64,000 nucleotides of DNA, from assembly GCA_020629715.1 (NCBI GenBank), contig JAHDCU010000001.1, positions 558,001-622,000 on the forward strand, read 5' to 3'. Under the pieces are notes generated by a model. That model was given only the letters and a program-made list of their open reading frames with translations, was not told the DNA's origin and searched no databases. Both the position numbers and the translations under genes were made by a program. Within the stretch, counting starts at the first letter, position 1; each line of letters begins with the position of its first letter. This DNA comes from Saprospiraceae bacterium (GTDB lineage Bacteria > Bacteroidota > Bacteroidia > Chitinophagales > Saprospiraceae). Positions 51,525 to 55,223 of this stretch are shown here, piece after piece.

Positions 51525-51698
51525 CATAAAGTTTTGGAGAATTTGCATGTGCAGCTTGGTCATTTTTTAAACCGCAGAGAACCTCCGCCATAGGCAAGAC
51601 TAACAAGAACACAGAGTTTTCTTATACTTCTTTTAGAAATTAAAGAGCAAGAGAATTAGGTAATAAATTGACATTACGCCATTAATTCAATTAATTAA

Positions 51699-51723
51699 GG
51701 CACTGATATATCTGTGTAACCCA
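51699..51723 (+). repeat. Left terminal inverted repeat of the transposon
   Basis: 25 bp, begins GGCACTGATATATC and ends GTAACCCA; an exact reverse complement is at 55160-55184. Confidence 0.9.
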
Positions 51724-51952
51724 AGAGATATATTGAATTAACAATTTGATCCATAAAAATATTAAAGATATCTTTGTAATAACAAAAGCCCCGACTACTT
51801 CGCTAATGAGACGTTTCAATCGAGGTAATTGTACAAATGAATCTATAAGGAAATGAGCCTTAATATGACATTTGATCTTTTGAATTTAAGTCTTGTATCG
51901 CACTAAGTTTTCATGTAACACTTAGATCAAGACTTTGGAGTATCCAATCGCT

Positions 51953-52063
51953 TTAGCAACTTTTTTTTGGCATACTCCTACCGTGTTTTGGCACTTTTAC
52001 CGTTTTCCCTTTACGCTTATACGTATAAGGTTCAACGAAGTGCCACTTGCGTTTTTTACTCAT
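51953..52063 (-). CDS. 36-residue basic protein, passenger gene
   Basis: A 36-residue ORF (ATG at 52063, TAA at 51953) beginning MSKKRKWHFVEPYTYKRKGK and ending PKKSC. It is very basic (about 15 Lys/Arg/His) with an aromatic patch. Its length and codon use look coding, and it lies in the same strand and cluster as the other minus-strand passengers. Function unknown; nucleic-acid binding is inference from charge. Confidence 0.4.
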   Translation of the reverse strand: MSKKRKWHFVEPYTYKRKGKTVKVPKHGRSMPKKSC

Positions 52064-52130
52064 TATTTATTTAATGGTTAAAAGTCAAAAAATAGGAACG
52101 TAACGCAGTCCTTTATTCCGCGAAGTGGGA

Positions 52131-52232
52131 TTACCTAAGTCTTCTCACTCGTACTGTAGTTTGAGTTCTTACCGTTGTTCTAATAGTAGTTCGAACTCTA
52201 ACAGGTTTAGTTTTAAGTCTAATAACTCTCAT
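52131..52232 (-). CDS. 33-residue Arg/Thr-rich protein, passenger gene
   Basis: A 33-residue ORF (ATG at 52232, TAA at 52131) dominated by Arg, Thr and Val, with repeated VR-TT steps (VRVRTTIRTTVRTQTTVRVRR). It is positively charged and likely beta-strand-forming. It begins 57 bp after the terminator that follows the coiled-coil gene. It is too short for confident calling and no family is recognised. Confidence 0.35.
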   Translation of the reverse strand: MRVIRLKTKPVRVRTTIRTTVRTQTTVRVRRLR

Positions 52233-52288
52233 TTTTGATAGTTTATAGATTAATGAATCCAGAATTAAGGAACGTCTGGTTTCGACCT

Positions 52289-52320
52289 TAAAAGACCATA
52301 GTTGCAGCTATGGTCTTTTA
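52289..52320. terminator. Bidirectional terminator in the transposon
   Basis: TAAAAGACCATAG pairs perfectly with CTATGGTCTTTTA over a 6-nt loop. The stop codon of the coiled-coil gene (52318-52320) is inside the stem's end. It separates the coiled-coil gene from the two tiny basic ORFs. Confidence 0.75.
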
Positions 52321-52809
52321 TTGATATTTTTCTAGTGGCATTCCATCTGAATCAAACCATTCTTTTAATCCGTATTTCCATTCTGCTCCTTCATACTCTT
52401 GGTATCTTTTAAAAAGTACACTTTTTTTTGCCTTTACACTTATTGTTGCAGAGAGAGTACTATAAAATGATCTGCGATTTGATGAGTCCTCTAGTTTCTC
52501 ATCAAATTCTGAGATATAATTCACAATTTGCTTTATTGATTGAGTTCTTCCAGCTACTTCTAAAGCCCACAAAGTCTTTTTTGTATTAGCCCATTCAGGA
52601 TTATATTGAGGATGCTCTTTCTTTTTTGAAGAATCAAAAGTTATGCTCTCGATCTTGGAATTAATTTCAGAAATCCTTTTGTTGATCATAGTTTTTTCAT
52701 CCTCTAGCTCCTTTATTTTTGAATTATAGGAAACTATTCGATTTTCTAGGTCATTCAAATTCAATACTAAACTTTGACTTTCTTTGAATAATTCTAAGAC
52801 ATTGATCAT
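52318..52809 (-). CDS. Coiled-coil protein, passenger gene
   Basis: The ATG at 52809 gives 163 residues; the longer open frame uses TTG inside an RNA hairpin and is unlikely. Residues about 5-65 form a heptad-patterned coiled coil (LNDLENRIVSYNSKIKELEDE, then MINKRISEINSKIES). The C-terminal half is globular, with WALEVAGRTQSIKQIVNYISEF and KYGLKEWF. No known domain was recognised. It is preceded by a two-hairpin RNA element and followed by a terminator. Confidence 0.65.
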   Translation of the reverse strand: MINVLELFKESQSLVLNLNDLENRIVSYNSKIKELEDEKTMINKRISEINSKIESITFDSSKKKEHPQYNPEWANTKKTLWALEVAGRTQSIKQIVNYISEFDEKLEDSSNRRSFYSTLSATISVKAKKSVLFKRYQEYEGAEWKYGLKEWFDSDGMPLEKYQ

Positions 52810-52841
52810 ATGATATATTTTTTGTATCTTTATGACTAAAT

Positions 52842-52928
52842 AAAAAAGGCTGTTACGGCTACGTTTAGACGCAACAGCTGAAAGTGTAAAGTGCAAATTA
52901 CGTTTGGCGATGGAGTTTGCACTTTTTT
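52842..52928 (-). ncRNA. Two-hairpin RNA element or attenuator
   Basis: On the minus strand, AAAGTGCAAA and TTTGCACTTT pair across an 18-nt loop (52888-52925), then GCTGTTGCG and CGTAACAGC (one G-T pair) pair across 12 nt (52849-52878 with flanks), followed by six T (52842-52847). Both loops contain AAACGTA. This looks like a small RNA or a leader terminator in front of the coiled-coil gene (52809). On the plus strand the outer hairpin also ends in a T-run (52922-52928). Confidence 0.45.
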
Positions 52929-53003
52929 TATACCCTATTTTAGGTATTATTCATATAAAGATACCCTTTAAAATCGAACCAGTCAAATTAAAGACACATA
53001 ATT

Positions 53004-53049
53004 GTCTGTAATATTTTTAAAGACTAATAAATAAAATACATTACAGACA
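53004..53049. promoter_or_regulatory. Inverted repeat upstream of the transposase
   Basis: TGTCTGTAAT pairs with ATTACAGACA (10 bp) across 27 nt. A second, ATAAGA-N4-TCTTAT, lies at 53122-53137, 27 bp before the transposase ATG. Both may be operators controlling transposition. Confidence 0.35.
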
Positions 53050-53163
53050 GTCATAAAAGATGACATACTCTCACAAACGTGGGCATAGAAAAAAGGAATA
53101 GTTATATAAAATTGCATAATAATAAGATATGTCTTATATTTATAGTGTCAAAACATTGATACT

Positions 53164-54105
53164 ATGTGTAACAAGAAAAACATTAGAGACTTTGATAGCT
53201 TATTTGAACTCATATCATATTTCGACACAGAAGAGAAGTGTATTGACCATTTAATCAAGTGGAGATGGAATGGGGAACCGTCATGTCCTTACTGTTCATC
53301 TAAGAAAGTAAACGAGTTAAAGGGTAAGACTAAGCGGTTTAAATGTTATGGATGCAGAAAGCAATTTGGGGTTAGAGTTGGTACTATTTTTCATGATAGT
53401 AAATTAAGCCTTAGAAAGTGGTTCTTAGCAATATTCATCTTTACTGCACATAAAAGAGGCGTTAGTTCTCACCAGTTATCGAGAGACTTAAAGATTACTC
53501 AAAAGACTGCTTGGTTTGTTTTGCATAGAATTAGAGAAGTATTCAAAGCTGAAAAGCCTGTATTATTTGGTGAAGTAGAAATAGATGAAACTTACATAGG
53601 CGGTAAAGAGAAAAACAAACATGCTAACAAGAGAACACCTAAAACACAAGGGCGATCAACTAAGACTAAAACGCCTGTAGTTGGAATTATTCAAAGAGGT
53701 GGTAAAGTTGTAGCGTTACCAGTAAAAAAAGTAAATTCTAAGGCTATTCAGTCTTTAGTAGATTCTACAGTAACAAACGACACAAAGATTTATACTGATA
53801 CTTTTACTCCTTACAGAGCTTTAGATAAGAAATACGAAAGAGAAGTAGTAAATCATGGTGCTGGCGAATACGTAAGAGGTGCAGCCCATACAAACAACAT
53901 CGAAAACTTTTGGTCTCATTGCAAAAGAACAATTGTTGGAACTTACTTTAAGATAGACGAGCATCATTTAGCATCTTATGTAAATGAATTTGCTTACAGA
54001 TATAATAACCGTAATTTAACGGACGGATCAAGATTTGATATAACATTAGCGAATGCAGAAAAAAGACTCACATACAAACGACTCATTGCTAGAAAACTTG
54101 CGTAA
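53164..54105 (+). CDS. IS1595-family (ISXO2-like) DDE transposase
   Basis: A 313-residue transposase. An N-terminal zinc ribbon has CPYC (about residue 41) and CYGC (about 61), then a helix-turn-helix (SHQLSRDLKITQKTAWFVLHRIRE), then the catalytic domain. The acidic residues are Asp141 (EIDETYIGG), Asp212 (KIYTDTF) and Glu247 (NNIENFWSHCKR). It is intact, so transposition competence is possible. Its last 53 bases overlap the next gene in another frame. Confidence 0.95.
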   Translation: MCNKKNIRDFDSLFELISYFDTEEKCIDHLIKWRWNGEPSCPYCSSKKVNELKGKTKRFKCYGCRKQFGVRVGTIFHDSKLSLRKWFLAIFIFTAHKRGVSSHQLSRDLKITQKTAWFVLHRIREVFKAEKPVLFGEVEIDETYIGGKEKNKHANKRTPKTQGRSTKTKTPVVGIIQRGGKVVALPVKKVNSKAIQSLVDSTVTNDTKIYTDTFTPYRALDKKYEREVVNHGAGEYVRGAAHTNNIENFWSHCKRTIVGTYFKIDEHHLASYVNEFAYRYNNRNLTDGSRFDITLANAEKRLTYKRLIARKLA

Positions 54106-54349
54106 GCAATACCCAAACGATCTAAAACTAGATGGTGGATTTAATAAGGAATTAGATAAAGCCATCATTGAAAAGAAGACCATTAGGCAAATCAAAAAAG
54201 AGCTAGGTATTACAAATAGTGATCTAGCTCGTATGTTTGGTTATAAAAATGAAGTATCATACAATAACGCCAAAGAGGGTAAGAAACGGCTTGAACGTGG
54301 TATTGAAGAGTTATATGAGTTAATAGTTAACAAACTTGATTTAATCTAG
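54053..54349 (+). CDS. Small HTH-like protein overlapping the transposase 3' end
   Basis: A 98-residue protein in the +1 frame relative to the transposase; it starts 53 bp before the transposase stop. Its centre (IRQIKKELGITNSDLARMFGYKNEVSYNNAKEG, about residues 44-76) resembles a helix-turn-helix with a Cro/XRE-like set. It could regulate transposase or passenger expression. It ends 23 bp into the convergent gene at 54327. Confidence 0.6.
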   Translation: MQKKDSHTNDSLLENLRKQYPNDLKLDGGFNKELDKAIIEKKTIRQIKKELGITNSDLARMFGYKNEVSYNNAKEGKKRLERGIEELYELIVNKLDLI

Positions 54350-54659
54350 CAATCTCATATTGAACTGCTTCTAATACGCCTTCGGTTGTCCCTTCAATTT
54401 TTGATAATGTACAACTTACGTTGCCCGTTTGATGATGTTGGGGCTTTTGTCTTTGATTAAAAAAGTCTTCACTATCTGAAAAACCACAGTTATTGTAAAG
54501 TCCGTCAATGTGATCATCTGATACACCGACCATAATGAAATATTCTCTTAACAGTATGTAGTCTGATTTTTGTGCATTATTAGAAATTATCTTATCACAA
54601 ACATTTTTCAAGTCCTTCATGTACTCCAATAAAGCATCTTGTTTAGTTGTCTTATCCAT
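54327..54659 (-). CDS. Small soluble passenger protein, unknown function
   Basis: A 110-residue protein, helical at both ends, with an internal QKPQHHQTGNVSC segment. No family is recognised. It follows the membrane protein gene by one base on the same strand (TGA, one base, ATG), so the two are probably coupled. It overlaps the convergent HTH gene by 23 bp. Confidence 0.55.
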   Translation of the reverse strand: MDKTTKQDALLEYMKDLKNVCDKIISNNAQKSDYILLREYFIMVGVSDDHIDGLYNNCGFSDSEDFFNQRQKPQHHQTGNVSCTLSKIEGTTEGVLEAVQYEIARLNQVC

Positions 54660-54660
54660 A

Positions 54661-55101
54661 TCAATTAATTTTAGAATAATGCTTTACTATATCATTTACT
54701 TTAAGTTCGCCTAATCCTAATAACGTATTATGCTTAGCTTTAATTCCCTCTACTAAGTCAGATGCTTGACTTTCAAGTTCTTCAATTCGATCTTTATACG
54801 TTTTAAAGTTATCATTTATTTCCTCTATTGCAGTTGATTTTGCAATATTCTGTTGTTTCCAAGTTAGAAATAGTATTACTGCTATAATTAAACCACCGTA
54901 TACGGGTATAGTTCTTTGCATTACAGTAACCATTCCTTCTAATCGCGACATTTTGATCAATAAAGCATCGTATTCCGTATCATTTTGACAAATCAAAGCA
55001 TAATCAACACTGGTTAAGGGATTAATCTGGCAACAAGACCAGTAGAATACAAAACCTATTACAAGAATTAAAATCAAAATAAGAATACGCTGCAACCACA
55101 T
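54661..55101 (-). CDS. Two-TM coiled-coil passenger protein
   Basis: A 146-residue membrane protein with TM segments at about residues 4-24 and 63-81, Cys residues in the first TM end (SCCQIN), and a coiled-coil tail (about 88-125, STAIEEINDNFKTYKDRIEELESQ). It is the first gene of a minus-strand pair at the right end of the transposon. A 20-bp palindrome covers its candidate -7 box. Function unknown. Confidence 0.6.
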   Translation of the reverse strand: MWLQRILILILILVIGFVFYWSCCQINPLTSVDYALICQNDTEYDALLIKMSRLEGMVTVMQRTIPVYGGLIIAVILFLTWKQQNIAKSTAIEEINDNFKTYKDRIEELESQASDLVEGIKAKHNTLLGLGELKVNDIVKHYSKIN

Positions 55102-55113
55102 CTAATGAAATCT

Positions 55114-55133
55114 TTAACTTTAGTCAAAGTTAA
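55114..55133 (-). promoter_or_regulatory. Palindrome over candidate -7 of the passenger pair
   Basis: TTAACTTT-AGTC-AAAGTTAA, perfect 8-bp arms. The minus-strand -7 candidate TAACTTTG (55125-55132) lies inside the right arm. A repressor bound here would block the promoter; the small HTH protein at 54053 is a candidate. Confidence 0.45.
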
Positions 55134-55159
55134 GTAATTATATATTATCATTAACCCAC

Positions 55160-55184
55160 TGGGTTACACAGATATATCAGTGCC
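55160..55184 (-). repeat. Right terminal inverted repeat of the transposon
   Basis: Exact reverse complement of 51699-51723; flanked outside by TTAATTAA (55185-55192), as is the left end. Confidence 0.9.
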
Positions 55185-55223
55185 TTAATTAATATCTAAT
55201 CATTATTCATTAATAACTTGGGG

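Follow-up and report, generated by a model that had tools for sequence, protein, structure and literature searches.

The segment at 51699-55184 of the window (the whole 64,000-nucleotide stretch of DNA analyzed here) raises the question of which of its small genes serve transposition and which are cargo. This segment of a Saprospiraceae chromosome had been described in the initial annotation as a complete IS1595-family transposon with six passenger ORFs, together the best candidate for an undescribed system. The element spans 3486 bp and is bounded by inverted arms at 51690-51723 and 55160-55193 that are 34 nt long and 100% complementary, each arm comprising a 25-bp terminus, the 8-mer TTAATTAA, and one extra base. 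Because this target 8-mer is itself palindromic, the inverted repeat appears to be 34 nt long, whereas the true terminus is 25 bp. From left to right, the boundaries are an 8-bp target duplication copy (TTAATTAA, palindromic, 51691-51698), the left 25-bp terminal inverted repeat (GGCACTGATATATCTGTGTAACCCA, 51699-51723, plus strand), an exact 25-bp right terminal inverted repeat (55160-55184, minus strand), and the second 8-bp duplication copy (TTAATTAA, 55185-55192), as the initial annotation had it. At the local A+T content, the chance of finding two equal flanking 8-mers is an estimated ~4e-5. Between these ends, a gene at 53164-54105 (plus strand) encodes a 313-aa transposase with a zinc ribbon and a DDE domain, which matched the Pfam families DDE_Tnp_IS1595 (1.8e-40) and Zn_ribbon_IS1595 (4.5e-10) and the NCBIfam IS1595 family (1.2e-59). 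Its reading frame is whole, and D141, D212, and E247 occupy columns that are invariant across 60 aligned sequences, in agreement with the earlier reading of an intact ISXO2-like DDE enzyme. A hairpin with perfect arms and A/T tracts at 52289-52320 is terminator-like in either direction, with 1 such hairpin found versus 1.4 expected by chance; a 14-bp inverted pair (51782-51795 and 54437-54450) was judged to be due to chance, and an Rfam scan over the whole element gave no match.

A scan of the genome collection with the transposase returned 80 loci, ~45 of which have paired ends and identical 8-mers on both sides; this recurrence of the inverted repeats and the duplication bears out the description of a complete IS1595-family element with an 8-bp duplication. 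The ends of the relatives are of the type GGCA..TATA..TG.GTAAC (or GGGA..TATATAC), their elements are ~1.5 to 5.7 kb long, and their 8-mers are non-palindromic, whereas that of the window is palindromic. Cargo varies even among close relatives, as seen in 13 related elements with ORFs listed. In the nearest relatives, L014 and L015, the transposases are 84 and 81% identical to that of the window, the place to the left of the transposase is taken by a Bro-N gene and a coiled-coil protein, respectively, and other small genes lie on the right; in further elements, the cargo includes a DUF+PIN pair, a DUF3800 gene, or a type-I-like methylase. Based on these ~45 relatives with the same anatomy and different cargo, we classify the element as a transporter IS (tIS) of the IS1595 family. 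Elements of this kind are known, and passengers unrelated to transposition (here cc163, bas36, and the pair mem146 and p110) lie inside their ends. The family includes passenger-carrying tIS forms, e.g., tISCpe8 and MTnSag1/tISSag10 (Siguier 2009, cited in PMC5704250). As presented in that citing article, these elements resemble the window element in having an IS1595 transposase, inverted ends, and passengers inside the ends but carry resistance and/or mobilization genes, whereas in the window element, an HTH accessory gene overlaps the transposase gene and the cargo is uncharacterized. ISApl4, a single-gene IS1595 element of the IS1016 subgroup, shares the DDE signature and A+T-rich duplications of 8 bp (such as TTAATTTA) but is only 712 bp long, with one gene and 14-bp ends (PMC12561309).

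With regard to mobility as a unit, the element is absent from a sibling genome and single copy in its own. The 4.13-Mb, 15-contig assembly contains one copy of the element and one pair of ends, and no further copy of either was found in it. The flanking genes, for a Crp-type regulator and a DUF429-like protein, have 85.5% and 81% nucleotide identity, respectively, to their counterparts in a genome of the same genus (G001), where they are neighbors: the aligned flanks lie 115 bp apart, and the element is absent. This comparison, which the initial annotation had proposed as a check, supports that the element inserted recently, as had been suspected. Because the flanks nearest the ends are too diverged in G001 for a base-exact empty site, the argument for the duplication comes from the window itself and the family pattern. 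Searching plasmids with the whole element returned nothing beyond a 10% transposase match.

The six small ORFs that were reported beside the transposase are all present, and four of them stand as passengers, whereas two do not. The first of these two, hth98 (54053-54349, plus strand), shares 53 nt with the end of the transposase gene. This overlap is identical in L014 to L017, and hth98 homologues with overlaps of 26 to 35 nt are found in L013, L018, and L019; in the tree, all hth98-bearing transposases lie in one supported branch. The best DNA match in the searched relatives (in G034) covers the transposase-hth98 block alone (query positions 1422-2627, 76% identity). Given its overlap with the transposase gene and its retention alongside that gene in the nearest relatives, hth98 is an accessory gene and not cargo. 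In two elements, the hth98 homologue is split alike into two overlapping ORFs (L020:5905-6241 and L050:5888-6224), reflecting a frameshift site or, alternatively, two distinct proteins. The second ORF that does not stand, an Arg/Thr-rich 33-aa ORF (52131-52232, minus strand), is probably not a gene, because no homologue was detected in searches that included Pfam, NCBIfam, and PHROGs.

In an AlphaFold model of hth98 (10 sequences, mean pLDDT 73), a confident HTH starts at about residue 41 (pLDDT 86-90), and the N-terminal 40 residues are weakly ordered with a short helix at residues 30 to 37. The HTH is Cro/C1-like; fold comparison gave weak hits of the Cro/MqsA/HipB kind, among them MqsA, HipB, and P22 c2, and the C-terminal half of the protein matched MqsA_antitoxin with an E value of 2.3e-4 and 21.7 bits versus a cutoff of 30. 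With a match below the cutoff and no toxin gene adjacent, hth98 is not assigned to the MqsA family. The likeness to MqsA/Cro-C1-type proteins lies in the C-terminal half, whereas hth98 differs from them in having no zinc domain, in its N-terminal tail with a motif described below, and in its overlap with the transposase gene.

Among the cargo genes, bas36 (51953-52063, minus strand) encodes a 36-aa basic peptide with relatives in the IS1595 element L020, in contig C12 of its own genome, and in G080; the family consists of 35- to 40-aa basic peptides with the pattern V..YT...GK.VKV..H.RS. Relatives outside IS1595 transposase loci, in L140 (own genome, C12:464766-464849) and L117, gave a weak PHROG match (phrog_21154, E 0.006). 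The cc163 protein (52318-52809, minus strand) has an N-terminal coiled coil and a C-terminal winged-helix-like part (YGLKEWFDSDG) and is 34% identical to a protein encoded in the IS1595 element L050, which alone among cc163-like proteins is statistically supported as a homologue. Proteins with a coiled coil and a winged-helix-like part are found beside IS1595 transposases in L015, L022, L023, and L050. The remaining two genes are paired: mem146 (54661-55101, minus strand) encodes a protein with two predicted membrane helices and a cytoplasmic coiled coil, and p110 (54327-54659, minus strand) encodes an all-helical soluble protein. Because their homologues are adjacent, in the same order and orientation, amid ordinary genes of another Saprospiraceae chromosome, mem146 and p110 are a two-gene cassette. 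Around this chromosomal pair, neither an IS1595 gene nor inverted ends that match were detected, and the pair occurs without cc163, bas36, or a transposase.

None of the passengers matched anything above the cutoffs in Pfam, NCBIfam, PADLOC, or PHROGs, and for anti-phage defense, PADLOC gave coiled-coil noise for cc163 and nothing for the others; with no curated family assignment, they are indeed undescribed. A mem146 profile detected the window alone beyond noise among 395 Bacteroidota genomes and nothing in plasmids. The p110 model (pLDDT 90) had no fold match in the PDB or a viral library, and a hint of EAD10 (14.5 bits versus a cutoff of 24.1, over 27 residues) was dropped because of this. 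Going by anatomy, our guess is that mem146 and p110 most likely form a membrane-anchored two-component module of the toxin/antitoxin or defense type, in which a coiled-coil protein with two transmembrane helices would be joined by a helical cytoplasmic partner. Under the suggestion of the initial annotation, the small ORFs would all belong to a single co-adapted system that is undescribed; their presence in one element and the absence of a curated family for any of them would agree with this. We consider such a single system highly improbable, as mem146 and p110 are found elsewhere without the other genes, relatives of cc163 and bas36 are present in other elements without the rest, and L014 and L015 have other genes at the corresponding places. 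In L025, L026, L027, L087, L336, and L338, the transposase gene is followed by a gene for a DUF protein and, in several of them, also by a PIN/VapC gene; this toxin-antitoxin-like cargo recurs in Bacteroidota and Alphaproteobacteria and lacks the hth98-type motif. In flavobacterial elements (L022, L023, and L030; L026 and L027), proteins of ~70 to 90 aa with the sequences LYTANxxNEVVLFxTNLK... or YVLLENKDVLGVFGSLK... recur beside the transposase.

The poorly ordered N-terminal part of hth98 contains a motif helix, GFNKELDKAI (residues 29 to 38), which lies outside the folded HTH in the AlphaFold model. Motif instances were found in other genes coupled to IS1595 transposases, i.e., genes whose start lies between −75 and +20 nt relative to the stop of the transposase gene: TFNKSLDKALKYNP in the KilA-N protein coupled to this genome's other IS1595 transposase, SFNKLLTQALNYDP in a P63C protein (L037), SFEELLTTAVRKIPP in a methylase (L051), TFEDMIAAALKP in a 46-aa protein (L035), and DFGEALARF in a 60-aa protein (L058). 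The other IS1595 transposase is the only one in the genome besides that of the window (L141:2792-4637; C4:402791-404636); the KilA-N gene overlaps it by 8 nt, its protein has the same kind of motif at the C-terminus (FNKSLDKALKYNP), and a search for clean element ends at this locus found none.

We described the motif by a profile of 17 columns from 22 training loci; because the instances used for training had been selected visually, the weight lies with the held-out sets. With the profile unchanged, 160 transposase loci from viral contigs were scored, 133 of which have a coupled ORF, using 300 composition shuffles per ORF for p values. At p≤0.01, 22/133 coupled ORFs had the motif (1.3 expected), and at p≤0.05, 40/133 (6.7 expected). 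With one ORF per 40%-identity cluster, the motif was found at p≤0.01 in 9/65 coupled ORFs versus 4/130 control ORFs from the same loci (Fisher p 0.007) and at p≤0.001 in 6/65 coupled ORFs versus 0/130 control ORFs; the 4/130 controls are somewhat above the nominal level. The stretch is present in all eight additional relatives of an alphaproteobacterial transposase, reaching p≤0.003 in six of them, and was found in 0/4 loci from another query. Among 13 plasmid loci, 6 have no coupled ORF, and the 7 with one include one clear instance (Methylocystis, p 0.001) and one borderline instance (Entomospira, p 0.09), with none in the rest; the motif is also absent from the DUF+PIN elements. A profile trained without the window's group gave p=0.0014 for hth98 of the window. 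A first, crude regular expression that matched 27/63 loci was superseded by this shuffle-tested profile. Based on the enrichment in the held-out sets and the many loci without the motif, we conclude that the motif is real and occurs above chance in genes coupled to many IS1595 transposases, without being universal.

The motif is joined to KilA-N (1.9e-22), P63C (down to 5e-33), Bro-N (4.9e-8), and RhuM (2.4e-67) domains, to N6/N4 (3.5e-39), C5 (5e-90), and D12 (1e-61) DNA methylases, and to the HTH of the window type. These phage-type proteins and methylases share gene position and motif with hth98 but have an unrelated main domain. Stand-alone proteins of 37 to 60 aa consist of little beyond the motif and a lysine/arginine-rich tail and matched no family in Pfam or NCBIfam. 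On the transposase tree, the joined domain switches at least 13 times, a count from labels in which L092 was marked as P63C in error (no Pfam match) and L046, L059, and L091 were given the labels of similar relatives that had been scanned. The higher the identity between two transposases, the more similar are their motifs (r 0.57), also between proteins with different joined domains (r=0.40, permutation p~0.0002); the motif of the window's branch is only weakly similar to that of the next-nearest branch, and the window's branch and the nearest peptide branch are likewise only weakly alike. Because the motif tracks the transposase while the joined domain changes, the transposase is a more likely partner for it than the joined domain. 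A Rosetta-stone search for the motif fused to a transposase C-terminus gave no convincing case.

Two other readings of the motif have to be weighed. Were hth98 and the other coupled genes ordinary passengers or transposase repressors, the motif could be a short, generic amphipathic helix of repeated origin or part of a dimer interface, with no docking function; a short, degenerate motif that many elements lack, the slight enrichment in controls, and an HTH resembling those of MqsA/Cro-type repressors would all fit. We regard this as rather doubtful, given the enrichment in held-out sets, the persistence of the motif with the transposase through changes of the joined domain, and the small stand-alone proteins. 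It is less probable still that the motif is a relic of one ancestral small gene behind the transposase that was later fused to different domains and kept by inheritance rather than contact. Such a history would account for motif similarity tracking the transposase tree; however, the motif is N-terminal in some proteins and C-terminal in others (L037, L141, L147, and L236), and because it occurs at either terminus, a simple fusion at one end is insufficient.

Altogether, we consider it reasonably probable that the locus is a recently inserted, complete IS1595 tIS with a two-gene transposition module, in which hth98 docks, and exchangeable cargo. The zinc-ribbon/DDE transposase would bind the 25-bp ends and insert the element, duplicating 8 bp of an A+T-rich target. 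The second gene of the module, hth98, is probably translated by coupling to the overlapping transposase gene and would provide a flexible tail with the short helical motif, followed by the DNA-binding HTH. The motif may dock hth98 onto the transposase or the transpososome, and the HTH may then contact DNA of the element or the target and thereby tune transposition or expression of the transposase. In relatives, the DNA-contacting half would have been exchanged for KilA-N, P63C, Bro-N, or RhuM domains, DNA methylases, or a basic tail, and cc163, bas36, and the mem146-p110 cassette would be exchangeable cargo. More tentatively, as a possibility that we rate short of probable, the proteins coupled to many IS1595 transposases in several phyla may combine a transposase-docking helix with an interchangeable DNA-contacting part and thereby tether DNA binding or methylation to the transpososome. 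In the IS1595 literature searched, which did not include Siguier 2009, we found no conserved coupled second gene or motif; the motif in these genes is new here, and an earlier description is possible.

If this model is correct, it would represent a modular accessory-factor strategy that is not known from insertion sequences and would explain why a methylase or KilA-N/Bro gene is frequently found directly behind an IS1595 transposase gene. If the motif docks onto the transposase, IS1595 elements would recruit DNA-binding or DNA-methylating partners via one interchangeable peptide. In tIS, true cargo would then be separable from the transposition machinery, both of which are lumped together as passengers in annotation.
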